Below, one piece after another: positions 6,820 to 37,587 of a DNA stretch of 64,000 bases. The notes beneath the pieces were generated by a model. That model was not told where the DNA came from, made no database searches, and saw only the letters and a program-made list of their open reading frames with translations. This DNA comes from Acidobacteriota bacterium (lineage in GTDB: Bacteria > Acidobacteriota > Holophagae > Holophagales > Holophagaceae). The stretch lies in assembly GCA_016213735.1 (NCBI GenBank), contig JACQZU010000016.1, forward strand, positions 1-64,000, in the 5' to 3' direction. The position numbers were made by a program, and so were the translations under genes. Each line of letters begins with the position of its first letter. Position 1 is the stretch's first letter.

Positions 6820-8778
6820 TCAGCGAGGTTCCCGGTCCAGGCAGCCCCGCACCCGCCAAGCCAGTTCCTCGAGGTTGTAGGGCTTCGGCAGGAATTCCAC
6901 CCCCGGCTCGAGCAGGCCGTGCCGGCTGATGAGGTCCGCCGTGTATCCGGAGGTGTAGAGCACCCGCATGTTCTTGAGGCGGGACCCCAGCCGGGCGGAC
7001 AGTTCCCTTCCGTTCATGTCGGGCATGATGAGGTCGGTGACGAGGAGGTCGATGGTCCCGGCGGCGAGGGCCGCATCCAGGGCCGAGGTCCCGTCGGGGC
7101 AGGCCAACACCCGGTACCCGAGCCGGGCCAGGTATTCCTCGGCCACCCCCCGGATTCCCCCATCGTCCTCGGCCAGCAGGACCGTTTCGGACCCACCTCG
7201 GGCGGGGTGGATGGAACGAGCCCGGTGGATACCCACTGCTTCACCGATCACCCGGGGAAGGTAGATCTTGAAGGTCGTCCCGATCCCGGGTTCCGAGTAA
7301 ACGTCGATGAGGCCCTTGTTCTGCTTCAGGGCCCCGAATATGCTCGCCAGCCCCAGTCCCGTGCCTCGACCCATCTCCTTGGTCGTGAAAAAGGGTTCGA
7401 AAAGGCGGCCCATCACCTCCGGCCCCATGCCCGTCCCCGTATCCGACACCGACAACATGGCGTATTCTCCCGGGACCGCACCGGGATGCCGCTCCGCGTA
7501 GTCCTCGCCGAGGGTCACGTTGGCGGTCTCGAGGACCAGCCTGCCTCCGTCCGGCATGGCGTCCCGGGCGTTGACGGTGAGGTTGAGGATGATCTGGTCC
7601 AGCTGTCCGGGGTCGATCAGGGTGGTCCATAAACCCGGGGATCCTTTGATCGAAAGGCAGATGTCCTCCCCCAACAGGCGTCCCAGCATTCCCTCCATTC
7701 CCGCCAGCACCTGGTTCATGTCCAGCACTTTGGGCGAGATGACCTCCTTGCGGGAGAAGGCCAGAAGCTGCTTGGTGAGCATGGCGGCGCTTTCCGCCGC
7801 GCGGGCCAGGTTGTCCAGGTAAGTGGCGACCCCCGGGGTGGGCCCCAGAGCCCCACGGACCAGTTCGAGGTTCCCCAGGATGGCGGTCAGGATGTTGTTG
7901 AAATCGTGGGCCACTCCGCCCGCCAGGCGCCCGATCGACTCCATCTTCTGGGCTTGGCGAAGCTGCTCCTCGAGCTTGCGCCGTTCCGTCAGGTCGATGC
8001 CGATTCCCGCCATCATCGGCCCCTCGATCGAATCGATCCTCACTCCGGTGAGGAGGAAGGGCACGTAGGTGCCGTTCTTGTGAAGCAGCGCGCTTTCGAT
8101 GGCGTCCAACTGGACGCCGCGCTCTAGGATCCCCCGGGTGGCGTTCACGGCCATGTCGGAGGTTTCCTTCGTGGGATGCCAGTCCCCAACATAGAAGTCC
8201 CGAAGCTCATCGGGGGTGTAGCCGAGGAGGGTCTCGTGGTTGCGGTTCCAGCGCTTCAGGCGCAGGTCGGCGCCGTACAGGTAGAACACGCCGGGTAGCC
8301 CGTTGATGACCTGTTCGAAGAAGGTCCGCTCCCGCTCCAGGGCCGCTTCGACCTCTTTGCGTGCGCTGATGTCGATCGCGGTGCCGAGGTAGCCCGCCGG
8401 GGCACCGTCGGGAGTCCGCAGCGCCGTCACCGTGAGGTTGACGGTCAAGCGCTGGCCGTTTTTCCGGACGTACACCCACTCGCACTCCTCAGACGGCACC
8501 TGCCCCAGGCGCGCGATGAAGGTCTGGAATCCCGACACCTTCCGCCCGAGCTCCTTCTGCAGCCGTTCCGCCCGGGCTGCCACCTCCCGGGCCTCGTGGA
8601 ACTGGAGGACCGATTGGCCGAGGACCTCCCCTGCCGGATAGCCCAGCATCAGTTCCGCGCCGTGGCTGAACCCGGTGATCAGGCCCTCCAGGTTCGTGGC
8701 GATGAGGGCCACCCCCGTGGCGGAATCCAGGATTCTCCGGAGCTCCATCGAAGTGCCGAATCCGGTCGGGTGTTCCAT
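6820..8778 (-). CDS. Hybrid sensor histidine kinase (PAS-PAS-HisKA-HATPase-REC)
   Basis: A 652-residue soluble sensor kinase. Two PAS domains (about 10-140 and 150-265), each ending in a PAC-like [10 protein letters not shown] or [10 protein letters not shown] motif, precede a HisKA H-box with His near 291 (GGVAHDFNN). The ATPase domain shows [25 protein letters not shown] and GRGTGLGLA. The C-terminal receiver has the acidic pocket LLAEDDGG, a phospho-acceptor Asp in LLVTDLIMP and Lys in LPKPY. ATG 8778 is preceded by a very strong ggaggagggg site. There is no transmembrane helix and no adjacent regulator. The architecture is like the two large kinases at 43.8-50.3 kb, but with fewer sensor domains. 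Confidence 0.92.
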
Positions 8779-9353
8779 ACCCCTCCTCCCCCTCCGCGCA
8801 TCTTTCCACCTGCCGGCGCCCTGGTCCTCCTCCGCTCTCCAGACTCAGTATCGGAACATTACTCCAGGGGCTTCAATCCAGCCATCCCTTGGCGTCGTGC
8901 CTCGAATGGAAGGAGGCTTGGGGAGCTTCCTTTTCCCCCGCGATTCCCCCGTGCCCCGGGGCCGCCCCTCCCCAGCATCCGTTCCCCACCCCACGGGCCT
9001 CACCCCCCCCACTCCCAGAATTCCCTTGCCCGGCGCCAGCGGTCTCGCGGAGGTCCTGCTCGCCGGATCCATCGGTCCCCTCCTGCGGGTCCCCGTCCTG
9101 GTCGCCACCCTGCAGGCGTTCCACCCCCCCGGCCGCAGCGGGCCATCGGGGAATGCAAAACCCTTTGGCCTCAGGCCTCTCCATTTCCGACAAACCCATC
9201 TAGGCGAGGGCCGGCGGGTTAGCCCTGAATCCGATTCCAGGTTTGGAAGGCCAGACACACAACTTCGGAATATTCGTCACCATCATCAGGCACGAATGCG
9301 GGCACGCATTGATGGGGATGGCCGCCTCCCTCCCCGGGGGGATGGGCGGATAA
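8779..9353. other. Intergenic stretch without recognised content
   Basis: This lies between the kinase start and the first island repeat. It is C-rich on the plus strand in places (around 8940-9020), with no coding signal, terminator or strong inverted repeat seen. The kinase promoter should lie in the first 150 bases. Confidence 0.5.
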
Positions 9354-9415
9354 ATGGCTCCAATCTGATTCAGCCCTCCAGAGGGGTGGTTGGATCTTGA
9401 GCGCAGTGATCCCGT
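9354..9415. repeat. 62-bp dispersed repeat, copy 1
   Basis: This matches 12304-12365 at roughly 80-85% by eye, with shared ctgattc, gccctcc and ggtggttggat segments. It lies just left of the duplicated yciO module and may be another part of the same mobile or decaying unit. Confidence 0.7.
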
Positions 9416-9449
9416 GGGGGCATAGCAAGTCCAGGGGAAGGAATCCTTG

Positions 9450-9538
9450 GGCCGCGATGGGAGCCTCGGAGGGATCCAGGCACCACCAGGTATGGTCCTG
9501 CAGGAAACGGGTCGAGTCTGAACGATGCCGGCCCCGCC
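9450..9538. repeat. 89-bp perfect direct repeat, copy 2
   Basis: Identical to 5867-5955. The match to the intact yciO gene begins exactly where this repeat stops. Confidence 0.9.
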
Positions 9539-9694
9539 TTCCGGAGGCTCAAGCAGCTGCTGCCCGGCCCCTACCCCGTGCGGCTCCCCGCCAGCCGGGA
9601 GGTGCCCCGCTACCTGCAGGACAAGCAGACCGTGGGACTGCGCATCCCCGACCACCCCTTCTGCCGCGCCCTCGCCCGCCTCCTGGGGGAGCAC
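9537..9694 (+). pseudogene. yciO relic B, 5' segment (interrupted)
   Basis: This aligns without gaps to yciO 1718-1875, encoding the LKQLLPGP to LLGE region with high identity. The match ends abruptly 20 bases before the M23 peptidase stop codon and resumes at 10864. The missing 75 bases of yciO are replaced by 1.17 kb containing the peptidase gene. Confidence 0.88.
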
Positions 9695-9714
9695 GGGCCC
9701 CGGGGCGCCGGATC

Positions 9715-10755
9715 CTACTTCGGGGTGAAGTACACGCCCCTCACTGGGTTGAAGCCCGGTAGGTTGGCGAAACGCAGGGGCAGCGAGGGGTCCTCGAACA
9801 GCCGCGGGCCCGCCTGAAGTTGGTAGTGCAGGTGGGGGCCGTAGGAGTCGCCCGAGCTGCCGAGCCGGCCCACGACTTGGCCCTGCTTCACCCGATCGCC
9901 AGGCTTCACCGCCACCGAGCCCTGGCGGAGGTGCATGAGCACCGAGCACTCGCCGTTGCCGTGGTCGATCACCAGATGGTTGCCGGCGACCGCGCCGACC
10001 GGGTCCGGCAGGGCCGCCCAGGCCTCCTGCAGGATCGTCCCCGGTTTCGGATTGTCGGGCACGTCGTTGCGGCAGGAAGCCACCACGCCCTCCGCCGGGG
10101 CCAGCACCGGGTGGTCCCAACCGGCGTAGGATTCATTGCGGTCGCGGTCATCCACCTGCGGTTCGTAGTTCGGCCCCAGGGCCAGGACATCAATGGCGAA
10201 CTGGTTGGAGTAGCCTCCGTGGCCGCCATCCTGGACCGGGCCCTGTGTGAGGATCGCGGGTCCGCGAAGGGGGAAGGCCAGGACGGTCCTCGGCTGGTAG
10301 GCGTCCAAGGGCAGCTCCAGAGAAAGGGGCGACGCGGATCCGTCGAATTCCAGCCGCAGATTCATCCGGTCCACCGCCCAGGCAGCCGGGCGCAGGAAGC
10401 GCAGGCGCAGGTCGAAGGCCTCGTCCAGGTGGAAACGCCGCTGAATCGCCGAGGCGGCCGCGTCCGGGGCCAGCCGGTAGCGGTGGCCGGCAACCGGCGG
10501 CGCCAGCGCGGGTGCCTCGTAGCGAACCGTTTCGACCTTGCGGCGGCCGGACCACAGGGTGGCCTCGAGGGCGCGGGGGCGGATCCCAACCAGGTTCCCC
10601 GGTCCGACCACCAGGTCGACGACCCAGCCCTCGTAGCCGGGGCGGGTGCCTTCCTGGGCCTTGTGCACCCGCTCCGGCACCGGGCGCAGCCAGGCGGGTT
10701 CCGCGGAACCGAGGATCGCCGAGGAGAGCATGACCATCCGAAACCTTGCCCACAT
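9715..10755 (-). CDS. Secreted M23 (LytM-like) metallopeptidase
   Basis: The 346-residue protein has an N-terminal leader (RMVMLSSAILGSAEPAW) and is probably exported to the periplasm, where M23 enzymes cut peptidoglycan cross-links or activate amidases. The catalytic domain occupies the C-terminal half: NQFAIDVL (candidate metal-binding Asp near 189), NHLVIDHGNG, VLMHLRQGS and the diagnostic HLH near 308-310 in GPHLHYQL. The first His ligand is less clear, so activity is likely but not certain. ATG 10755 is chosen for ttggagg seven bases upstream and the leader; longer upstream reading only translates repeats. The gene sits inside a broken yciO copy in opposite orientation. Confidence 0.85.
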   Translation of the reverse strand: MWARFRMVMLSSAILGSAEPAWLRPVPERVHKAQEGTRPGYEGWVVDLVVGPGNLVGIRPRALEATLWSGRRKVETVRYEAPALAPPVAGHRYRLAPDAAASAIQRRFHLDEAFDLRLRFLRPAAWAVDRMNLRLEFDGSASPLSLELPLDAYQPRTVLAFPLRGPAILTQGPVQDGGHGGYSNQFAIDVLALGPNYEPQVDDRDRNESYAGWDHPVLAPAEGVVASCRNDVPDNPKPGTILQEAWAALPDPVGAVAGNHLVIDHGNGECSVLMHLRQGSVAVKPGDRVKQGQVVGRLGSSGDSYGPHLHYQLQAGPRLFEDPSLPLRFANLPGFNPVRGVYFTPK

Positions 10756-10863
10756 CGAGAACCTCCAAGGCGCGTCACCTGCTACGCGCCGCGCCCCGGT
10801 CCCGCTTAGGGCGGCGCTCGGGACGGCGCACTCCACGGGAAAGGGCCGGCGACAAGGATCGGT

Positions 10864-10980
10864 GCCCTGGACCGGGTGGTGGACTCCGGCCAGCCCCTGG
10901 GCGTCCCCCGCACCGTTCTGGACACGACCGGCGAGGAGCCTGTGATGCTGCGGGAGGGCGCGGGGGCTTGGCCGGTGTAG
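10864..10980 (+). pseudogene. yciO relic B, 3' segment
   Basis: This aligns to yciO 1951-2067, from ALDLVVDCGQPLGVP to the stop codon, which is retained (gccggtgtag). With 9537-9694 it forms one duplicate interrupted by the M23 gene. Similarity to the intact locus ends a few bases after the stop. Confidence 0.88.
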
Positions 10981-10995
10981 GGGGAGGCTGCGGGC

Positions 10996-11124
10996 CCGAT
11001 CACGATCACGATCACGATCACGGTCACGGACACGAACACGGGCACGAGCACGAGCGCGGGCACAAGCACGGCCACGAGGACGAGCACGAGCATGAGGACG
11101 AGCGCGGAAACGAGCATAGTCATG
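10996..11124 (+). repeat. Degenerate hexanucleotide tandem array 1
   Basis: About 21 units of CACGAT, CACGGG, CACGAG and variants run in a 6-base register. Translated on the plus strand this gives a His/Glu/Gly/Asp-rich string (DHDHDHGHGHEH), which I regard as a by-product of the repeat. Arrays 2 and 3 carry the same unit in the opposite orientation. Confidence 0.85.
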
Positions 11125-11125
11125 C

Positions 11126-11240
11126 CGCCGGGAACAGCGCCTCTGGAGGCGCCGGGGCCTCGGGCGTTGGGCCGGTGCGGAACAAGGGGTCACCGGCCTT
11201 GCCCCCGTTCGCCCGCGCGGCCCGCTCAGTCACGGGTGGG
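11126..11240. repeat. Conserved 3' block of the duplicated module, copy B
   Basis: Counterpart of 6558-6672. It follows the hexamer array directly. Beyond about 11250 the two modules share nothing. The remaining gap to 11544 shows falling GC and no other gene. Confidence 0.6.
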
Positions 11241-11544
11241 GCGTTATTGGCATCGATCCTGGGGGGGAGAGCACCACAGGCCCCACTCAGCCCTCGGAGG
11301 CAAACCACCCGCCTCCAGGGTGAACAACCTCTTTAGCCTCGACACCTAGGGGAGAAGCAGCCATCCCCGTGAAAAAGGGGCCTGTGGGTTGAAGGCCAAG
11401 CGATGAATCAGGGTCATGGTGGCCAGCGGGGGCCCTGGGGAGAATTCAACTGCCCAGGGGTTTCCAAAAAACATCATATTTGTTATTCTTCCAACATGCT
11501 TTGTAACGGACGGTGTGTTCACCGGCCTCACCAAGGGAGCGAAA

Positions 11545-12171
11545 ATGTGGAAATTTAATTGGGCCGCCCTTGTTTGTTTTGCCTGCCTGCCCGGCCTCGC
11601 GGGCGATAAGGACATCACCCTGATTGCCACCAAGCAGTTCACTCGTACTTCGGCCTATTCCAACGGTGCTGTGGCATTAAGGTATGATGTTGAACAACCA
11701 ATGGGAATGAATATTAGGTTTGGATGGATGGTTCAACAAATCACTAATTTTTATTTTCAAGTGTATTTTTCTTATCATTTTACGACTTCAGCCGCTGTTC
11801 GAATTGACGGAATAAATAAACCACCAATTGATAAGCTTGACCCAAGTTTTTCATCGAGATTGACTGATGATTTCAAAAATCAAGGATTGAGTGTTGGAAT
11901 TTCGATTAATAGACATCAATGGATTGATTATGGTTTTGGACTGGAAGCGAGAATGGAACGTTTGTGGCAGTTTGATGCAAGGGAGACCTACACTCGCCCC
12001 TGGGCTCGGGCCAACGTTGGGACAGTAATAAAAAACGGGAAAATATCCAACTTGTTTGGTTTTGAAACTTCCGTTGCCCTGACCAGAGTACATTCTAACC
12101 CCACCGGGTTGGACTTGAAATCCTTTGCTCCGAACCGAGAAGTTGGAATATTTATGGGAATCAGGTACTGA
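11545..12171 (+). CDS. Predicted outer-membrane beta-barrel protein, low-GC
   Basis: No family is recognised. The 208-residue product starts with a signal peptide (MWKFNWAALVCFACLPGLAG), then alternating aromatic/polar segments such as FYFQVYFSYHF and GYGFGLEARMERL-like strands. It ends in the aromatic terminus GIRY, typical of outer-membrane barrels. ATG 11545 has a gggagcg site and gives the leader; an in-frame ATG at 11416 would put 43 extra residues before it. Base composition is clearly lower in GC than all neighbours, with codons such as tat, att, aat and aga common. It lies between repeats of the accessory island, so recent transfer is likely. Confidence 0.68.
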   Translation: MWKFNWAALVCFACLPGLAGDKDITLIATKQFTRTSAYSNGAVALRYDVEQPMGMNIRFGWMVQQITNFYFQVYFSYHFTTSAAVRIDGINKPPIDKLDPSFSSRLTDDFKNQGLSVGISINRHQWIDYGFGLEARMERLWQFDARETYTRPWARANVGTVIKNGKISNLFGFETSVALTRVHSNPTGLDLKSFAPNREVGIFMGIRY

Positions 12172-12303
12172 TTATGAGAGATTCAAACGAGGGAAGAATC
12201 CGCAAGCACGCACTGGGGTGATTGGCTCCCGTGACGAGCGCAATAGGAAGAAAAAGCCACAAATCCGAGCGAAGAACGGCCAATGTTGGGGATAGGAGGA
12301 TTC

Positions 12304-12365
12304 AGGGCTCCATTCTGATTCGGCCCTCCGGGGTGGTGGTTGGATTTTGAGGGTAGCGATCCCGT
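12304..12365. repeat. 62-bp dispersed repeat, copy 2
   Basis: Partner of 9354-9415. The gap 12172-12703 otherwise holds an AT-rich patch with a small ccagaa/ttctgg hairpin near 12422 and the hairpin at 12485-12513; no gene is supported. Confidence 0.7.
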
Positions 12366-12484
12366 TTGAACGGTGGCATCACACCCGACAGCAACAACGG
12401 AAACCACTGGACAAAAAAATCCAGAAATAATTTCTTCTGGTGGCTGATTCGAGGACGAAATTTCAGTTTTTTGACGGGCTGATG

Positions 12485-12513
12485 CCGGGGTCTGGGATTG
12501 CCCAGACCCCCGG
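12485..12513. terminator. Strong GC hairpin, possible terminator
   Basis: A stem of ccggggtctggg with cccagacccccgg (loop attg, one bulge) lies between the barrel gene and the four-helix gene. There is no T run on the plus-strand side; on the minus strand it would follow the four-helix gene at 12704. The role is uncertain. Confidence 0.4.
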
Positions 12514-12703
12514 GCTGCGCCGCTTCCGGATGGTCATACCCGCAGTGTAGCGAAAAAGCGGAAGCGCATCTTGGTGCCCCGGCTACGGGGCTGCCCCTTT
12601 CGCTTGGTGCAGTCCAGAATCCCCTGGACCACCGTCGGCCTGGTGATGACGGGGCTGTGCGGCATCAGCGGGTCGCACTTGACCCTGGCAAGGCCCCACG
12701 CCC

Positions 12704-13078
12704 TCACCCCCCCGCCCACTCCCGCAGCCTCGTCAGCATCGCCAGGACCCTCAGGGTCAGGCCCTTCGCCGCGTCCCTGGCCGCCGGGGCGCATCCACCA
12801 CGGTGGAGCAGCAGCGTCAGGGCAGCGTCGAGTTCCAGCGCCGAACCGCGTGAGATCTTCAGCGTCCGTGCGCGGTCGGCGCCTTCGCGGCCCATGGCTT
12901 CCGCGAGGTTGAGCACCACGCTTCCGCTCGCCCGCTGGGCCTGGTCGGCCAGCCACGCGTGGCCGCGGGGGGCCTTCCGCGCCATCGCCACGACGAGCGC
13001 GTCCAGCTCCACCGCCACCCGGTAGGCGTCCAGGCGCTCGTGGTCGAGCCTCGTGCCCGCTGTTTCTTCGATCGTCAT
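12704..13078 (-). CDS. Four-helix-bundle protein (S23/bAvd family)
   Basis: The 124-residue helical protein matches the family known as four-helix-bundle or S23/IVP, found in 23S rRNA intervening sequences and related to the Avd accessory protein of diversity-generating retroelements. Recognisable parts are the opening LDAYRVAVELDALVVAMA, then QAQRASGSVVLNLAEAMGR, the family core. No reverse transcriptase or rRNA lies nearby, so this is a free-standing member of unknown role. The start at 13078 is preferred over 13084 because the aaggagg site then has correct spacing. That site sits in one arm of the inverted repeat 13085-13156. A second member is transcribed divergently at 13439. Confidence 0.8.
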   Translation of the reverse strand: MTIEETAGTRLDHERLDAYRVAVELDALVVAMARKAPRGHAWLADQAQRASGSVVLNLAEAMGREGADRARTLKISRGSALELDAALTLLLHRGGCAPAARDAAKGLTLRVLAMLTRLREWAGG

Positions 13079-13084
13079 TTCCAT

Positions 13085-13156
13085 CCTCCTTCGCTCCGGC
13101 CGCGCCGCGCGGCTTCGCAAGAACCCGGCCGTGCGGCGCGGGCGGAGCGAAGGAGG
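13085..13156. repeat. 24-bp near-perfect inverted repeat over the four-helix ribosome-binding site
   Basis: Arms 13085-13108 and 13133-13156 pair with one mismatch around a 24-base loop. The left arm contains the ribosome-binding site of the minus-strand four-helix gene. A further perfect hairpin (ggcgc-tga-gcgcc) follows at 13155-13167. In RNA the structure would hide the binding site. Confidence 0.85.
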
Positions 13157-13170
13157 CGCTGAGCGCCTTT

Positions 13171-13299
13171 CGTCACCGTCTTCGTGCCCGCCTTCGTGCC
13201 CGCCTTCGTGCCCGTGCCCGTGCCCGCGCCCGTGCTCGTGCCCGTGCCCGTGGTCGTGCCCGTGCTCGTGCCCGTGCGCGTGCTCGTGCTCGTGCTCGG
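13171..13299 (-). repeat. Degenerate hexanucleotide tandem array 2
   Basis: About 21 units of CGTGCC, CGTGCT and CGTGCG (the complement of array 1's CACGGG/CACGAG units) lie between the divergent four-helix genes. The first part has a longer 12-base period (ttcgtgcccgcc). The gap 13079-13438 consists of the inverted repeat, this array and about 140 bases that must hold the promoter of the plus-strand gene. Confidence 0.85.
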
Positions 13300-13438
13300 A
13301 AAACCTCTACCGGATTGAGTTTCGTGCAAGTGTGCGGCTGGAGGAATTCTCAGCTTCCTCCATTTCCGCCGTCCCCCCTGCGGCCGTCGTGCTGGGGCGA
13401 GGACGGTCCTCGGTGGGCCGGCGGAAAAGGAGGATTAG

Positions 13439-13777
13439 ATGGATCGGAAGTTCGAGGCTCTGGAGGTCGCGATGGAGATGGCCGCTGCGCTGCGGCCATC
13501 GCTGGAGGCGCTGGCGCGGCGGGACCGCGGCCTGGAGGACCAGGTGCGCCGGGCGGCGGCGTCGGTGGTGCTGAACATCGCGGAAGGGGCGGAGCGGCGC
13601 GGGAAGGACCGGCTGCAGCACTACCGGATCGCGGCGGGGAGCGCGGCGGAGGTGGGGGCCGGGCTGCGGCTGGCGCGGGTGTGGGGGTATGTGGAGGGGA
13701 CAGCCTGCGCGGAGGCGGAGGGCCTGGTCGTCCGGGTGCAGCAGATGCTGTGGCGGCTCACGCACGGGCCGGGGTGA
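13439..13777 (+). CDS. Four-helix-bundle protein (S23/bAvd family), second copy
   Basis: A 112-residue relative of the product at 12704-13078. The N-terminal FEALEVAMEMAAALRPSLE is followed by the same core, DQVRRAAASVVLNIAEGAERR, then a helix rich in Ala and Gly and a final helix VRVQQMLWRLTHG. ATG 13439 follows aaggagg at ideal spacing. The two proteins are diverged, so they are not a recent tandem duplicate. The pair is divergent, with hexamer arrays between and after. Members bind nucleic acid in the retroelement setting; here no partner is visible and no function is proposed. Confidence 0.82.
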   Translation: MDRKFEALEVAMEMAAALRPSLEALARRDRGLEDQVRRAAASVVLNIAEGAERRGKDRLQHYRIAAGSAAEVGAGLRLARVWGYVEGTACAEAEGLVVRVQQMLWRLTHGPG

Positions 13778-13781
13778 GGCG

Positions 13782-13856
13782 GCCGTGCGCGTGATCGTGT
13801 CCGTGCTCGTGATCGTGATCGTGATCGTGATCGTGATCGTGCCCGTGCTCGTGCCG
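13782..13856 (-). repeat. Hexanucleotide tandem array 3
   Basis: Units of CGTGAT and CGTGCT/CGTGCC repeat about 12 times, starting 5 bases after the four-helix stop and ending 32 bases before the nadB stop. The centre (gatcgt repeated) is nearly uncorrupted, so it is the youngest-looking of the three arrays. Confidence 0.85.
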
Positions 13857-13888
13857 CGACGGGGAGGGGCCGAGGGGCTTCCCTCGCC

Positions 13889-15460
13889 TCAATCCACGCG
13901 GTAGTGGCAGCCGCGGCTCTCGTCGTTCAGCTGGGCGGCCTTGAGGATGAGGCGGGCGCAGATGATGCCGCTGCGCAGTTCCAGGAGGCTCCGGGTGAGC
14001 CGGGCGCCCCGGTAGAAGGCTTCGATGCGGTGGTAGAGGTAGCCCATGTCCTCCCGGGCGCGCTCCAGGCGGGCGCGGGTGCGCACGATGCCGGCGTAGT
14101 TCCAGAGGGTCTCCCGGATCTGGCTCCAGTCCTGGTCCAGCAGCAGGGGGTCGGGCTCTTCGGACTCAGGGGGGGTGACCCAGGGCGCCAGGACCTCCGG
14201 CCCGGGGGGCCGGGCCTCCCGGGCCTCCGACACGGCGGCCTCGGCGGCGCGGTGGCCCCAGAGCAGGCCCTCCAGCAGGGAGGTGGAGGCCAGGCGGTTG
14301 GCCCCGTGGAGCCCCGTGCAGGCCACCTCCCCGGCGGCGTAGAGGCCCTCCAGGCTGGTGCGGCCGTCCAGGTCCACCAGCACGCCGCCGCAGAAGTAGT
14401 GGGCGGCGGGCACCACGGGAATGGGCTGGCGCCAGGGGTCGATGCCCTCGGCCCGGCAGGCCGCCACCACGGTGGGGAAGCGTCGCTCGAGGTCGTGGTG
14501 TTCAGCCACCGGGGCCAGGTCCAGGTACACGCAGGGCTCGCCGCTGGCCGCCATCTCGTGGAAGATGGCCCGGCTCACCTGGTCCCGGGGGGCCAGTTCC
14601 AGAGCCTCAGGCTGGTAGCGCGCCATGAAGCGCTCGCCCCGGCGGTTCACCAGCCGGGCCCCCTCTCCCCGCAGGGCCTCGGTGAGGAGGGCCCGGGGGC
14701 GGTTGGGCACGTAGAGCGCCGTGGGGTGGAACTGCACGTACTCGCAGTTCACGATGCGGGCGGTGGCGCGGTAGGCGGCGGCCAGGCCGTCTCCCGTGGC
14801 CCCGGCGGGGTTGGTGGTGTGCAGGTAGAGGTAGCCCAGCCCCCCGGTGGCCAGGATCGTGCGCCGCGCCCGGGCGGACGCGACCCGGCCTGTGGCCGCG
14901 TCGAAGAGGTAGGCCCCCCAGACGCGCATGGGATCGTAGACCTGGCGGGGGTCCTGGCCGTGGTGCGGCGTGGTCAGGAGGTCCACCAGCATTCGCCCTT
15001 CCAGCACCTCGATGCGGGGATGGGCCCGCACCGCCTCGGTGAGGGCGGTCTGGATGGCCAGCCCTGTGGCGTCCTTCACGTGGAAGATGCGCCGGGCTCG
15101 GTGGGCCGCCTCGGCGCCGCTCTCCGGTTCTCCGTCCAGGCCCAGGTCGAAGGGAACCCCCAGGCGCTTCCAGAGGAAGTCCCGGCACAGGGGGGGGCCC
15201 GCCTCCGCCAGCAAGCGCACGGCTTCGGGTCGGCAGAGCCCCGCGCCGGCCTCTTCGATGTCCGAGGCCAGCAGCCCGGGGCTGTCCCCTTCCCGTTCCG
15301 GGGGCAGTCCGATGATCCCGCCCTGGGCCCAGGCGGTGTTGCTCTGACCCAGGGGATCCTTGGCCGCCAGGAGCACCTGCGCCCCCAGGTCGGCGGCGCG
15401 GAGGGCCGCGGAGCAGCCGGCGATGCCGGCCCCCAGGACCAGGACTTCCGCGTCCATCAT
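13889..15460 (-). CDS. nadB: L-aspartate oxidase
   Basis: This flavoenzyme oxidises L-aspartate to iminoaspartate, the first step of de novo NAD synthesis; NadA then condenses it with dihydroxyacetone phosphate. The 523-residue length is normal. It has the FAD-binding GAGIAGCSAA motif near the N-terminus, SNTAWAQGGI, TGGLGYLYLHTTNPAGATGDG (split as GGLGYLYLHTT and NPAGATGDG), QFHPTAL, EALRGEGA, and the capping region HYFCGGV with ANRLASTSLLEGL. The start at 15460 overlaps the upstream DUF309 stop by ATGA; a second ATG at 15457 is possible. nadA and nadC are not in the window. Confidence 0.95.
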   Translation of the reverse strand: MMDAEVLVLGAGIAGCSAALRAADLGAQVLLAAKDPLGQSNTAWAQGGIIGLPPEREGDSPGLLASDIEEAGAGLCRPEAVRLLAEAGPPLCRDFLWKRLGVPFDLGLDGEPESGAEAAHRARRIFHVKDATGLAIQTALTEAVRAHPRIEVLEGRMLVDLLTTPHHGQDPRQVYDPMRVWGAYLFDAATGRVASARARRTILATGGLGYLYLHTTNPAGATGDGLAAAYRATARIVNCEYVQFHPTALYVPNRPRALLTEALRGEGARLVNRRGERFMARYQPEALELAPRDQVSRAIFHEMAASGEPCVYLDLAPVAEHHDLERRFPTVVAACRAEGIDPWRQPIPVVPAAHYFCGGVLVDLDGRTSLEGLYAAGEVACTGLHGANRLASTSLLEGLLWGHRAAEAAVSEAREARPPGPEVLAPWVTPPESEEPDPLLLDQDWSQIRETLWNYAGIVRTRARLERAREDMGYLYHRIEAFYRGARLTRSLLELRSGIICARLILKAAQLNDESRGCHYRVD

Positions 15461-16224
15461 TTCAACTCCCACACGGGCCGCGGGAACTCCCAGAGGGGGG
15501 CCAGGTCGCGGGTCTCAGGATTCGCCTCCATCCATCGGAGCCTCTGCGCGGTGGCGTCGAGGGCCTGGCCGAAGGCTAGCACGCCCCAGGGGGTGGGGAG
15601 TTCCGTCCCGGTGGCCCTCTCCAGGGCGTCCCGCCAGAGGGCCTCGGCCCCCCCCCGCTGGTGGAACTGCTGGTGGTGGTAGCCCCCGGCCAGGAGGATG
15701 AGCCCCTGAAGCCCCGACCGCAGGTCGCCCTCCGCGGGGTCCCACAGCGGTTCCAGGGCCTCGTGGCACTCGTGGAAGAGGCAGGCGTTGTGCAGGCCCG
15801 CGGCCGCCGCGAGGGGGTACTGGTGGTCCGCGGGCAGGCCCGTGAGCACCAGCAGGGCCACCCCGCAGCGCAGGCTCAACAAGGGGCCGAAAGCTCCCCA
15901 CCGCTGATGGGGCATCCATCCTTCCGCTCCCCGCTGGGCCAGGTCCGGGCAGGCGTCCAGCGCCTCCTCCCAGGCTTCCCGGGGATCAGGTATTCCCACC
16001 GCCGCCAGGGGCCCGGCCGCCCGGGCCAGGAGTTGCTCCTCGGGAATCCCGCCCGGATGCTCCTGACGAAGCCGGGGCGCCCCCAGCACCATGGGCCAGG
16101 CCAGGCCCCCGCGGCCGCCCGGGTCGCGGAGGGCCGGCCCGGTCCGTCCCCGAAGGAAGTCCTGCACATCCCTGGGAAGCTGGGGCTGACGCTGCCAGAA
16201 GGCCGGGGGCGGGGCGCAACTCAT
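15457..16224 (-). CDS. DUF309 domain protein
   Basis: A 255-residue protein whose C-terminal half has the DUF309 signature HECHEALEPLW (about residues 150-162), followed by LQGLILLAGGYHHQ. The His/Glu-rich motif lies in a helical domain of unknown function. The N-terminal half (with DVQDFLRGRTGP and a Pro-rich stretch) is not recognised, and the protein is longer than most DUF309 proteins. Translation is coupled to nadB by the ATGA overlap, which suggests co-expression but does not establish a role in NAD synthesis. No clear Shine-Dalgarno site precedes ATG 16224. Confidence 0.78.
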   Translation of the reverse strand: MSCAPPPAFWQRQPQLPRDVQDFLRGRTGPALRDPGGRGGLAWPMVLGAPRLRQEHPGGIPEEQLLARAAGPLAAVGIPDPREAWEEALDACPDLAQRGAEGWMPHQRWGAFGPLLSLRCGVALLVLTGLPADHQYPLAAAAGLHNACLFHECHEALEPLWDPAEGDLRSGLQGLILLAGGYHHQQFHQRGGAEALWRDALERATGTELPTPWGVLAFGQALDATAQRLRWMEANPETRDLAPLWEFPRPVWELK

Positions 16225-16370
16225 GACCGATCCAGCCTAGTGCACCCCGCCAGGATTTCCGGCACGGAATCTGGCCGAAAGGGCCGAGGAAGGCCCATAC
16301 CTTTTGGCGTTAACACCCTCAGGCCACGGGGGTCCTCCTCGCCTCGCATCAGCCAAGCCCAACCCGAGGG

Positions 16371-16463
16371 GACGCCAAGAAATGAATGCCCCATGGCCGT
16401 GGGGTTCATGGCGTGCCTGGCGTCTTCGCGGTGAGGGTTGTCTTGTTTGAATGGGACAACCCT
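16371..16463. other. Two consecutive palindromic hairpins after the GGDEF-EAL gene
   Basis: The first (16371-16424) is nested: gacgcca/tggcgtc outside, atgaa/ttcat and cccca/tgggg inside. The second (16434-16442 with 16455-16463) is a perfect 9-bp stem starting 6 bases past the GGDEF-EAL stop codon. They probably end or stabilise that transcript before DUF309; no T-tract is present. Confidence 0.6.
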
Positions 16464-16468
16464 TGGGA

Positions 16469-18871
16469 TCAAACCACCCCCACGGCCTTGGTGGAGCGGC
16501 GCTTGCGCCAGAGTCCCCGGGCCTCGAAGAAGGCGGGCACCTCCTCCGGAGGCATGGGGCGGCTCACCAGGAAGCCCTGGGCCTCGTCGCAGTGCAGCGC
16601 CTTCAGGAAATCCAGCTGGCCCTGGTTCTCCACGCCCTCCGCGATGACCCGGAGGTTCAGGGTGTTCCCCATTCCGATGATGGCCGTGGCGATGGCCGCG
16701 TCGGTGGGGTTGATGTGCACGTCCTGGACGAAGGACTTGTCGATCTTGAGGGTGTTCACCGCCAGCCGCTTCAGCTGGGCCAGGGAGGAATAGCCCGTCC
16801 CGAAATCGTCCACGGACACTCTGAGGCCCAGGTCCTGCACGGACCGCAGGGTCTGGTCCAGGAGTTCGGGACCCGAGACGATGACCGTCTCGGTCACTTC
16901 CAGTTCCAGCAGGGAGGGGTCCAACCCGGTTTCCTGGAGCGTCCGCCGGAGGTGTTCGGTGAAGCCCGAATGGAGGAGCTGGCGCCCGGAGACGTTCACC
17001 GCCACGCGGGTGGGCGGGAGTCCCTGGGCCTGCCAGGTGAGGATCTGGTGGCAGGCCTGCTCCACCACCCACTCCCCGATGGGGAGGATGAGGCCTGTGG
17101 CCTCGGCCATGGGGATGAAGGAATCCGGTGCCAGGAGACCGAACTTGGGATGCTGCCACCGCAGCAGGGCCTCCAAGGCGGTGATATCTCCCGAGGTCAG
17201 GTCCACCTTGGGCTGGTAGTGGAGCCGCAGCTCCCCCTTGTCCACGGCCTTTCGGAGGTTCTGTTCCAGCATCAGCCGCTGGTGGGCGTCCTCGTCCAGG
17301 CTGGGGTCGTAGAAGGAGTAGCAGCCGCCGCCCCGGCTCTTCGCGTGGTACATGGCCACGTCGGCCTTCTTGACCAGCGTGTCCGCGTCCTCGCCGTCCG
17401 CGGGAAAGACGCTGATGCCGATGCTGGCCAGGAGGAAGAGTTCGTGGCCCTCCACCTGGAAGGGCCGGGAGAGTTCCGCCAGCACCTTCTCGGCCACCCG
17501 GCCCGCGTCCTCCGGGTGGGCCAGGCCGGGGAGCACCATGGTGAACTCGTCGCCCCCGAAGCGGGACAGGGGATCGGCCTCCCTCACCGTCCGGGTGAGG
17601 CGCTTGGCCACCCCCTGGAGCAGTTGGTCCCCCACGGGGTGGCCCAGGGTGTCGTTGATGTTCTTGAACCGGTCCAGGTCCAGGAAGAGCAGCGCCGCCT
17701 GCTTTCGGCTCCGGTGCGCCAGGGCCAGGGCCTGCTTGAGCCGGTCCGCGAAGAGGATGCGGTTGGGAAGCCCCGTCAGGCTGTCGTGGTGGGCCATGCG
17801 CACCAGGTTGGCCTGGGCCTGGCGCCGTTCCGTCACGTCCCGCCAGATGCCCCACACGACGCCCGTCCCAAGGCCGTGGGAACCGCCCGTGAGGCTGCCC
17901 TCCACGTACACCGTGGCCCCTTCCGAAGGCAGAAGGCGGGCCTCGATGGTCCCCCGGTATCCCGGGGTGAGGGCCCGCCCGAAGGTTTCGAGGAAATGCT
18001 CCCGGTCCTCCGGGTGGACCAGGTCCGCCAGCGCCGTGCCCAGGAGGTCCGGCAGGGGAAGGTCCATGAGCTCCCTCATGGCCCGGTTGCAGTAGAGGAA
18101 ACTGCCGTCGGCCCGGTTGCAGTGGATGAGGTCGGTGGCGTTCTCGATGAAATTCAGGAGCCGCTCCTCGCTCTCCCGCACCAGCCGCGCCTCATTCCGG
18201 ATCACGGACATCAGGAAGGTGGCGATGACCGCCGTGGCCCCGTTGAGGAGGGCCACCCAGACCGAGATGAGGATGAGGAACAGAGGGTCGTGGTGGATCC
18301 TCGAATCCACGAAGGGCATGGCGACGATGGGGAGGATGCCGTGGTGTTCCGCCCCCAGGAGCAGTCCGAAGAGGCTGCCCCCGGCCATCCCCAGGATCCA
18401 GACGTCCCGGGGCCGGTCCAGGAGGAAGGCCGCCTCGATGGTGATCACCAGGTAGACCGGCCAGAACCAGCTCGCCCCGCCCCCGCTGAGGTAGATCAGG
18501 GTGGTGGCCGCCCCGAAGTCCAGAAGCACCTGGACCTGGGGCAGGCAGGGGATCCGCGCTGCCCTGGAACAGGTGTGGAGGACAGAGTTGTAGCCCACCA
18601 CCGCCGCGATCGTGCCCAGCAGCGTCAGGACCTGCCAGGGCGCCAGGGCGAGGCCGTGGTGGCTGCCCCGGAAGGACGCCAGGGCATAGAGGGCGTAGAG
18701 GCCGAAGCAGGCCAGGAGGAACCACCGGGCCTTCACCGCCAGGCGGGTGCGCCGGGCGGCATCGGAGAGGTCGTCCCCCAGGGCCAGGGACGGGCCGGCG
18801 GGTCCAAGGGAGATCCGGCGCGAGAGCCGCTCGAACCCCTCGAACTGTTCCCCTGTCGGCACCATGTCCAC
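16469..18871 (-). CDS. Membrane-anchored GGDEF-EAL c-di-GMP enzyme with PAS domain
   Basis: An 800-residue protein with about five to six hydrophobic segments in residues 45-225 (MASE-like sensor), a PAS domain (about 230-355), a diguanylate cyclase domain and a phosphodiesterase domain. The cyclase motif RFGGDEF is intact at 439-443. The phosphodiesterase motif EALLRW is intact at 567-572, and the later motifs NVSGRQL, ELEVTE, DDFGTGYSSL, LKIDKSFV and AEGVE are all visible, so both activities look possible. In such dual proteins one activity usually dominates. It probably reports a membrane or ligand signal into c-di-GMP control. I saw no c-di-GMP riboswitch upstream. Confidence 0.94.
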   Translation of the reverse strand: MDMVPTGEQFEGFERLSRRISLGPAGPSLALGDDLSDAARRTRLAVKARWFLLACFGLYALYALASFRGSHHGLALAPWQVLTLLGTIAAVVGYNSVLHTCSRAARIPCLPQVQVLLDFGAATTLIYLSGGGASWFWPVYLVITIEAAFLLDRPRDVWILGMAGGSLFGLLLGAEHHGILPIVAMPFVDSRIHHDPLFLILISVWVALLNGATAVIATFLMSVIRNEARLVRESEERLLNFIENATDLIHCNRADGSFLYCNRAMRELMDLPLPDLLGTALADLVHPEDREHFLETFGRALTPGYRGTIEARLLPSEGATVYVEGSLTGGSHGLGTGVVWGIWRDVTERRQAQANLVRMAHHDSLTGLPNRILFADRLKQALALAHRSRKQAALLFLDLDRFKNINDTLGHPVGDQLLQGVAKRLTRTVREADPLSRFGGDEFTMVLPGLAHPEDAGRVAEKVLAELSRPFQVEGHELFLLASIGISVFPADGEDADTLVKKADVAMYHAKSRGGGCYSFYDPSLDEDAHQRLMLEQNLRKAVDKGELRLHYQPKVDLTSGDITALEALLRWQHPKFGLLAPDSFIPMAEATGLILPIGEWVVEQACHQILTWQAQGLPPTRVAVNVSGRQLLHSGFTEHLRRTLQETGLDPSLLELEVTETVIVSGPELLDQTLRSVQDLGLRVSVDDFGTGYSSLAQLKRLAVNTLKIDKSFVQDVHINPTDAAIATAIIGMGNTLNLRVIAEGVENQGQLDFLKALHCDEAQGFLVSRPMPPEEVPAFFEARGLWRKRRSTKAVGVV

Positions 18872-35944: not shown

Positions 35945-37423
35945 ATGGGCAAGAGCACCGGTTTCATCGAGTACGCCCGCCAGCTCCCGGAAGACCGGGA
36001 CCCCCGCGACCGGGTGAAGGACTGGAACGAATTCCATCCCCGGGTCCCCGCCGAGGCTCTCAAGCGTCAGGGCGCGCGCTGCATGGACTGCGGCACCCCC
36101 TACTGCCACACCGGAAAACTCATGGCGGGCATGGCCTCGGGCTGCCCCCTGAACAACCTGATCCCGGACTTCAACGACCTCGTGTACCACGGCCAGTGGC
36201 AACGGGCCCTCCGCCGCCTCCTGAAGACCAACAATTTCCCGGAGTTCACCGGCCGGGTGTGCCCGGCGCCCTGCGAAGGTTCCTGCACGGTGGGCCTCGA
36301 CGGGGATCCGGTGACCATCAAGGCGATCGAGTGCTCCATCATCGACACCGCCTTCGAGGAAGGCTGGGTCGGGCCCGAGTTGCCGGCCCTCCGCACGGGG
36401 AAGAAGGTGGCCATCGTGGGTTCGGGCCCCGCGGGACTGGCCTGCGCCGCCCAGCTCAACCTGGCCGGTCACACCGTCACCGTCTTCGAACGGGCGGACC
36501 GGATCGGCGGCCTCCTGATGTACGGCATTCCCAACATGAAGCTGGACAAGGCGCTGGTGGAGCGCCGGGTGGGTCTCATGGCCCGCAACGGCATCCGTTT
36601 CGTGACCGGCGTGGAAATCGGCCGTGACATTCCCTCGGAGAAGCTGCTGGAGGAGTACCACGCCACCGTCTTCTGCTGCGGCGCCACCCAGGCCCGGGAG
36701 CTGGAGGTGGAAGGGCGGCGGCTCGCCGGGGTCCACCTCGCCATGGACTACCTCACCGCCAACACCAAGAGCCTCCTGGACTCCAGGCTTGAGGACGGGG
36801 CCTACATCTCCGGAAAGGACAAGGACGTGGTGGTCATCGGGGGTGGCGACACCGGCACGGACTGCGTGGGCACCGCCTTGCGTCACGGGGCCCGGAGCGT
36901 GACCCAGTTCGAGATCCTCCCCCGGCCCCCTGCCCTGCGTGGCCGGGACAATCCCTGGCCCCAATGGCCCAAGGTCGCCGGGATGGACTACGGCCAGGAG
37001 GAGGCCGCCGCCCTCCAGGGCGCGGACCCACGCCACTACGGCATCCTCACCAAGCGTTTCGCGGGGGACGGCGCGGTGGCGGAGGTTCACACCGTGGACC
37101 TCCGGTGGACCCGCAGCGGGGAGCGGATGCAGAGCGAGGAGGTCCCCGGGAGCGGTCGGGTCTTTCCCGCCCAGCTGGTGCTCCTGGCCCTGGGTTTCAC
37201 CGGACCGGAGCGGAAGGGCCCCATCACCGAGCTGGGCCTCAAGCTGGATGGCAGAGGAAACGTGGTCTGCGACGGCCAGCGGATGACCAGCGTGCCCGGG
37301 GTTTTCGCGGCGGGGGACATGGTCCGCGGGCAGTCCCTGGTGGTCTGGGCCATCCACGAGGGCCGGAACACCGCCCGCAGCGTGGACCGCTACCTCATGT
37401 ACGGGGAGACCTACCTGCCTTGA
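35945..37423 (+). CDS. gltD: Glutamate synthase, small subunit
   Basis: The FAD/iron-sulphur subunit passes electrons from NADPH to GltB. In its 492 residues, N-terminal cysteines ([22 protein letters not shown]) bind two 4Fe-4S clusters. [11 protein letters not shown] is the FAD site, [10 protein letters not shown] the NADPH site, and [19 protein letters not shown] the C-terminal FAD motif. Its stop codon is the first base triplet of an 89-base-period repeat (37421-37498 and 37510-37587) that probably forms its 3' UTR. Confidence 0.97.
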
Positions 37424-37498
37424 TTTTCAGTGGGGGGCAAACGCTCGGCCTTGCCTCGCTGGGCCCCCCACACCCCCGCGCTCTCTCCCGGCCCAGCC
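37421..37498 (+). repeat. Structured 3' element, family 2, copy 1
   Basis: This starts at the gltD stop codon. The outer stem TGGGGGGC (37431-37438) pairs with GCCCCCCA (37463-37470). The linker is AAACG and an inner ggc-ctt-gcc hairpin lies within. The layout matches family 1 behind rpsO but with a longer outer stem and a different inner helix. Confidence 0.8.
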
Positions 37499-37509
37499 GC
37501 TCGATCGCT

Positions 37510-37587
37510 TGATCTTCAATGGGGGGCAAACGCTCGGCCTTGCCTCGCTGGGCCCCCCACACCCCCGCGCTCTCTCGCGGCCCAGCC
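37510..37587 (+). repeat. Structured 3' element, family 2, copy 2
   Basis: This repeats 37421-37498 with a period of 89 bases and very few differences, including the tgat.ttca lead-in. Copies 1 and 2 plus the relic at 37600-37792 fill the gap 37424-37809. Confidence 0.8.

Follow-up and report, generated by a model that had tools for sequence, protein, structure and literature searches.

Free-standing S23-family genes lie beside short-period tandem arrays and are probably cargo of a dispersed hairpin element

Three arrays of a CACGRN hexamer lie around a divergent pair of genes for four-helix proteins in the DNA studied here, and the locus raises the question of whether the arrays belong with the genes and, if so, in what capacity. 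The window (the whole stretch of 64,000 nucleotides that was analyzed) lies on contig C8 of the host genome, G000 (3.59 Mb in 28 contigs, 97% complete). A first-pass annotation of the letters had claimed three hexamer arrays, and Tandem Repeats Finder (TRF) recovered each of them with a 6-bp period: array 1 at 10997–11103, array 2 at 13207–13295 (with 12- and 30-bp registers across 13164–13298), and array 3 at 13790–13853. The periodic CACG score of the window was 22.5 on the plus strand and 27.5 on the minus strand, whereas the best of 40 simulated 64-kb Markov sequences scored 6, so the arrays exist and lie far outside what chance would give. The claimed orientations were correct, with CACG read on the plus strand in array 1 and CGTG in arrays 2 and 3, and the near-pure core ascribed to array 3 is a run of pure CACGAT units. 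In inverted orientation, array 1 matches array 2 (80% over 99 bp, against 13194–13298) and array 3 (87% over 62 bp, against 13783–13855). Arrays 2 and 3 had both been placed between the divergent genes. That is true of array 2, which is common to both S23 genes, but array 3 begins 5 bp past the stop codon of the second gene, of type A, and the two arrays surround this gene in direct orientation. Array 1 faces them at a distance of 2–3 kb. The window is a degenerate case in which the arms are old and split by kilobases.

Table 1. Features of the S23 locus in the window
Feature	Coordinates	Strand	Evidence
Array 1, CACGRN hexamers; stands alone, inverted with respect to the other two arrays, and may be an outer arm	10991..11116	+	TRF; inverted-copy comparison; periodic CACG score
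207-aa ORF between arrays 1 and 2; membership of the element uncertain	11548..12171	+	Pfam and NCBIfam: no match
S23-family gene, type B	12704..13084	-	PF05635, 6.6e-13 (search used a longer frame, to 13120); TIGR02436 (NCBIfam); paralogs C12a, C23a
Type B leader, palindromic, with a long stem that includes AGGAGG	13085..13156	-	Fold z -5.2; 3 paralogs, 7 compensated pairs
Array 2, in the interval of the divergent S23 pair; CACGGG/CACGAG hexamers, degenerate	13171..13299	-	TRF; inverted-copy comparison
Type A leader, a hairpin that includes AGGAGG	13356..13434	+	Fold z -2.6
S23-family gene, type A	13439..13777	+	PF05635, 6.5e-17; AlphaFold2 pLDDT 95.9; best PDB match 2GSC
Array 3, hexamers; core purely CACGAT	13782..13856	-	Letters; TRF; inverted-copy comparison

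Both genes are members of the four-helix S23 family, as had been proposed: the window proteins combine a profile match over the cut-off with a four-helix fold, the two marks of the S23/23S rRNA IVP family. In Foldseek searches, the AlphaFold2 model of the type A protein best resembled 2GSC (XCC0516 of Xanthomonas campestris) and 2RLD; Avd structures (4DWL and 8UB7) were also matched, at weaker E-values. The ribosome-binding AGGAGG ahead of the start is taken into a leader stem in both gene types, and the type B stem, which folds better than shuffles, is kept in three type B paralogs (7 compensated pairs of 33). Two of five leader folds (L041 and L160) were no better than shuffles. The type B leader aligned poorly with planctomycete copies, and that alignment was not used.

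The predicted four-helix fold of the type A protein is shared with Avd of diversity-generating retroelements, and a reverse-transcriptase-dependent element, with S23 acting like Avd, can be imagined on this basis. Profile searches found no RVT_1 reverse transcriptase in the host genome, unlike the situation in those retroelements, and the argument from S23/bAvd proteins in the first-pass annotation finds no support there. RVT_1 was missing from seven of the 18 S23 genomes examined (G000, G045, G050, G078, G087, G090, and G106), and four of the last six hold 13–16 S23 matches; dependence on a reverse transcriptase is very improbable.

The host genome contains 10 PF05635 matches, made up of six type A copies (one with an in-frame insert), three type B copies, and a divergent copy on contig C7 that has no arrays. 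CACGRN pattern hits no more than 100 bp apart were merged, and by a hand count of the listed hits 11 of the resulting 18 clusters lay within 500 bp of one of these matches; the S23 surroundings amount to approximately 0.4% of the genome, a share that predicts far fewer than one of the 18. Paralogous units have stretches of 300–660 bp in common at 69–91% identity. Values of dN/dS were 0.12–0.39 in seven of eight S23 paralog pairs and 0.82 in the pair A_C8a/A_C23b, and the S23 genes are under purifying selection. The arrays nearest to type A copies are in direct orientation, and only two of seven host loci passed the inverted-arm test described below. An exact pattern search for four CACGRN units with a further CACG found none in 40 other genomes of the host family.

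It had been predicted that short-period arrays would be enriched beside S23 genes in other genomes, and a pooled test bore this out. Arrays were accepted from TRF at a period of 5–9, at least 4 copies, and a score of at least 40. The test covered 130 loci from several phyla, 120 after removal of near-duplicates, drawn from the host genome, its family, 12 genomes with array-bearing loci, the G050 phylum, the G113 class, relatives found in an alignment scan, and cyanobacterial and other plasmids. Flanks under 400 bp or short stretches led to the exclusion of loci such as L003, L064, L070, L080, L086, L092, L093, L150, and L157, and of 14 of 35 loci of the G113/G114/G115 group; L171, which consists of two S23 pieces, was excluded as well. 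For the plasmids, 17 of 21 records with S23 were used, four Riemerella records not being among these. An array lay within 500 bp in 73 of the 120 S23 loci, compared with 6 of 120 equal zones 1–1.5 kb away, and the share of array bases fell from 8.3% at 0–250 bp through 1.7% and 0.46% to 0.26% at 1000–1500 bp. By set, arrays were found at 5/7 of the host's own loci, 7/10 in the host family, 12/27 in the G050 phylum, 10/21 in the G113 class group, 10/17 among the alignment-scan relatives, 12/15 on plasmids, and 17/23 in the 12 genomes, a biased set because it was taken from loci already known to carry arrays. The other sets were not chosen locus by locus for arrays, with the G050 and G113 groups entering via an array-bearing locus. 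Neither an array nor inverted arms were present at 36 of the 120 loci.

Microsatellites and S23 genes might simply both accumulate in long intergenic stretches. Other intergenic repeats do occur, 7 of the 18 host clusters have no S23 gene nearby, and the S23-less copies in that genome include solo arrays and one solo hairpin (C19 and C22). Control ParE genes of the same clade (28 of 30 loci, those with full flanks) had arrays at 2/28 and inverted arms at 0/28, compared with 12/27 and 5/27 for S23. The arms themselves also argue against coincidence. At a score of at least 45, the two flanks were inverted copies of one another in 47 of 120 S23 loci but in only 2 of 720 mismatched pairs, so that flanks match within a locus and not between loci. 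The same test succeeded at 12 of 24 S23 positions and at 1 of 360 non-S23 positions within those loci. Together with array periods that are nearly all 6–8 bp or multiples of these, the comparisons largely refute a coincidental origin, which we regard as improbable.

In these 47 loci, the inverted flanks place the S23 gene inside the loop of a hairpin whose stem is made of repeats. Folding of whole units as RNA placed the arms in a single stem (z -3.9 for L154 and z -7.0 for L163). Within genomes, own arms scored at least 45 in 21 of 43 cases and cross pairs in 26 of 148 (11 of 106 when G000 was removed); elements of one genome therefore sometimes have units in common.

Between lineages the unit changes. 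A scan with the host type A/B alignment gave 34 related loci in Planctomycetota, Myxococcota/Deltaproteobacteria, Bacteroidota, and others, and in 22 of them a short-period array lies no more than 600 bp away, its unit differing by lineage. In planctomycete copies, whose proteins are 62–65% identical to that of type B, the unit is CACGAG, as in the window. The best array period per locus (n = 73) was 6 in 15 loci, 7 in 35, 8 in seven, a multiple of these in 14, and 15 or 20 in two; period 6 went with high G+C (median 0.70) and period 7 with 0.50. Conservation does not extend to the repeat unit itself, only to the period of 6–8 bp and, often, to the inverted arms. Because the unit varies while these stay, the arrays look more like components of an element than like sites that a protein specific to one hexamer would bind. 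The same variation bears on the coding potential of the arrays. One reading frame of each window array is His-rich (HDHDHGHEH), as if the arrays were remains of a coding sequence for a His-rich metal-binding tail; the 7- and 8-bp units of relatives, which are unrelated in sequence, cannot hold one frame per unit, and this origin was rejected as scarcely credible.

Copy numbers and plasmids showed that the units are dispersed and that their presence at a site can vary. S23 matches are dispersed in multiple copies per genome, reaching 25 in G041, 24 in G138 (many truncated), 16 in G090, and 15 and 14 in others. On cyanobacterial plasmids, S23 genes separate cas6 from cas4, cas10 from cmr3, nrdB from nrdA (in antisense), and a traM-like gene from its neighbor. 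Three such sites are polymorphic, with a related plasmid confirmed to have no S23 gene at the site in Picosynechococcus 7002 (92% identity), Nostoc C057 (94.7 and 93.2%), and Dolichospermum UHCC 0315A (98.8%, with another repeat at the site). In Nostoc ATCC 53789, an S23-less hairpin with similar arms occupies the Nostoc S23 site. Read by eye, the three polymorphic sites showed no clean target-site duplication, and their spacers were replaced rather than split.

These sites bear on the view that the units are host regulatory or RNA-stability modules, fixed in place, in which the arrays are slippage-prone stems and nothing moves by itself. Purifying selection on S23, the location of units within operons, and leader hairpins that include the ribosome-binding site, with compensated pairs in the type B paralogs, would all suit such a module. 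Presence and absence at one site between near relatives would not, nor would up to 25 copies in one genome, with some truncated in another, or an antisense insertion between neighboring genes of one strand, and we consider a fixed host module unlikely. Dispersed intergenic hairpins, gene-less copies included, are also typical of REPIN/RAYT systems and MITE-like palindromes, from which the S23 units differ in that no clean target duplication was seen and that a Y1 transposase (Y1_Tnp) was not found in three of the 12 genomes examined (G000, G041, and G138). With neither RVT_1 nor a Y1 transposase in the host genome, a REPIN-type or retroelement explanation is unsupported, and the S23 genomes that have no RVT_1 or no Y1_Tnp indicate that neither an RVT_1-type reverse transcriptase nor a RAYT is generally needed. 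A phage origin was rejected: the L154 protein had no match in 50,697 phage records and S23 alignment A2 had none in viral contigs.

We return to the arms and the gene as one unit. Free-standing S23 genes are probably the cargo of a dispersed hairpin element resembling the intervening sequences (IVSs) of rRNA. Such an element would be ordered as arm, leader hairpin (in some cases), S23 gene, and arm, each arm being a tandem array of a 6–8 bp unit and often an inverted copy of the other. Upon transcription, the arms would pair to form a long double-stranded stem, which by analogy with rRNA IVSs is probably cut by RNase III, and a unit cut out in this way might do little harm between the genes of an operon. 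The S23 protein may bind the nucleic acid of the element. Slippage could lengthen the arms, template switching at the hairpin could preserve their likeness, and spread might rely on host replication or recombination, or on an enzyme that was not recognized here.

The 23S rRNA IVS is the closest known counterpart. The terminal inverted repeats of the Coxiella burnetii IVS form a 28-bp stem, and three tandem heptamers precede its S23 ORF (PMC4990558). The likeness lies in an S23 ORF between complementary ends and, in Coxiella, in heptamers directly before the ORF (PMC4990558). Such ends occur at 47 of the 120 loci, whereas in the window the inverted array 1 is 2–3 kb from arrays 2 and 3. The units described here differ in that they occupy intergenic or operon spacers and have stems built from arrays of 6–8 bp units, and their cleavage is conjectural. 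Location inside a 23S rRNA gene was rejected for all of 20 related loci: no Rfam match reached the gathering score in these or in the window at 8500–16500.

The arms also resemble a second group of repeats, the short tandemly repeated repetitive (STRR) sequences, as the heptamer repeats of cyanobacteria are termed. In cyanobacteria and Xanthomonas, STRRs and G-rich heptamers form tandem arrays between genes, mostly with a 7-bp unit (PMC4692102, PMC4679880). GGGAATC arrays of Xanthomonas include close pairs in opposite orientation, 70 in Xcc and 75 in Xac (PMC4692102), and TAACTGA arrays occur in Beggiatoaceae, cyanobacteria, and Bacteroidetes (PMC4679880). The 6-bp unit of the window falls outside the classic 7 bp, while its relatives mostly have period 7, and the arrays described here differ from STRRs in being tied to S23 genes. 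A word search of both texts found no mention of S23, and a literature search outside subscription journals and preprints found no general link between S23 and tandem arrays. The link of the IVS/S23 kind to STRR-like arrays is unexpected.

A broader proposal is tentative and, in our judgment, somewhat less likely to hold than to fail: S23 elements would be a widespread class of selfish hairpin that spreads without a recognized transposase or reverse transcriptase, with the rRNA IVS as its best-known niche, and many unexplained hexa- and heptanucleotide arrays (STRRs) of cyanobacteria, Xanthomonas, Bacteroidota, and others would be its arms or remnants that lack S23, with S23 protein acting in trans to move or shape them. 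Joining arrays and gene in one element connects two old puzzles of bacterial genomes, the S23 protein and the short tandem repeats found between genes; neither S23 proteins nor bacterial heptamer arrays have an agreed function, and one architecture of fixed period offers each a concrete and testable role. The data suggest that the rRNA IVS is a single niche of a hairpin element that is far more common and, if the element moves, that the usual enzymes are not involved, which is a new question for mobile DNA. In Flavobacterium columnare, a four helix bundle gene is reported between those for guanylate kinase and a nicotinate-nucleotide adenylyltransferase (PMC5524665).

The 4.4-Mb genome G138 contained 24 S23 matches, many of which were truncated or located at contig ends; this is the pattern expected for a decaying multi-copy element.

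In the host genome, the type A S23 gene L064 carries an in-frame insert in the middle of the conserved motif, and its unit and a type B unit are arranged tail to tail with few bases between them. A third dispersed repeat in this genome adjoins S23 units, and a separate tandem repeat is present in the window.

Type I-D and III-B CRISPR-Cas operons on cyanobacterial plasmids contain S23 units (L167, L170, and L172). The cas6-cas4 site is occupied by an S23 unit in Anabaena sp. 90, whereas a different repeat, which includes GGTTGGGTTG and the inverse of GGTTGGGTTG, is located there in Dolichospermum.

Coordinates of the insert and repeats
Feature	Location	Description
Insert in L064	Host C12:291231-291290	~20 residues
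Tandem repeat	Window 37419-37587	89-bp unit, two copies, 96% alike
Third dispersed repeat	Host C22:17014-17384; C23:120300-120663	~370 bp, 84% alike
Dolichospermum cas6-cas4 repeat	L176 890-1260
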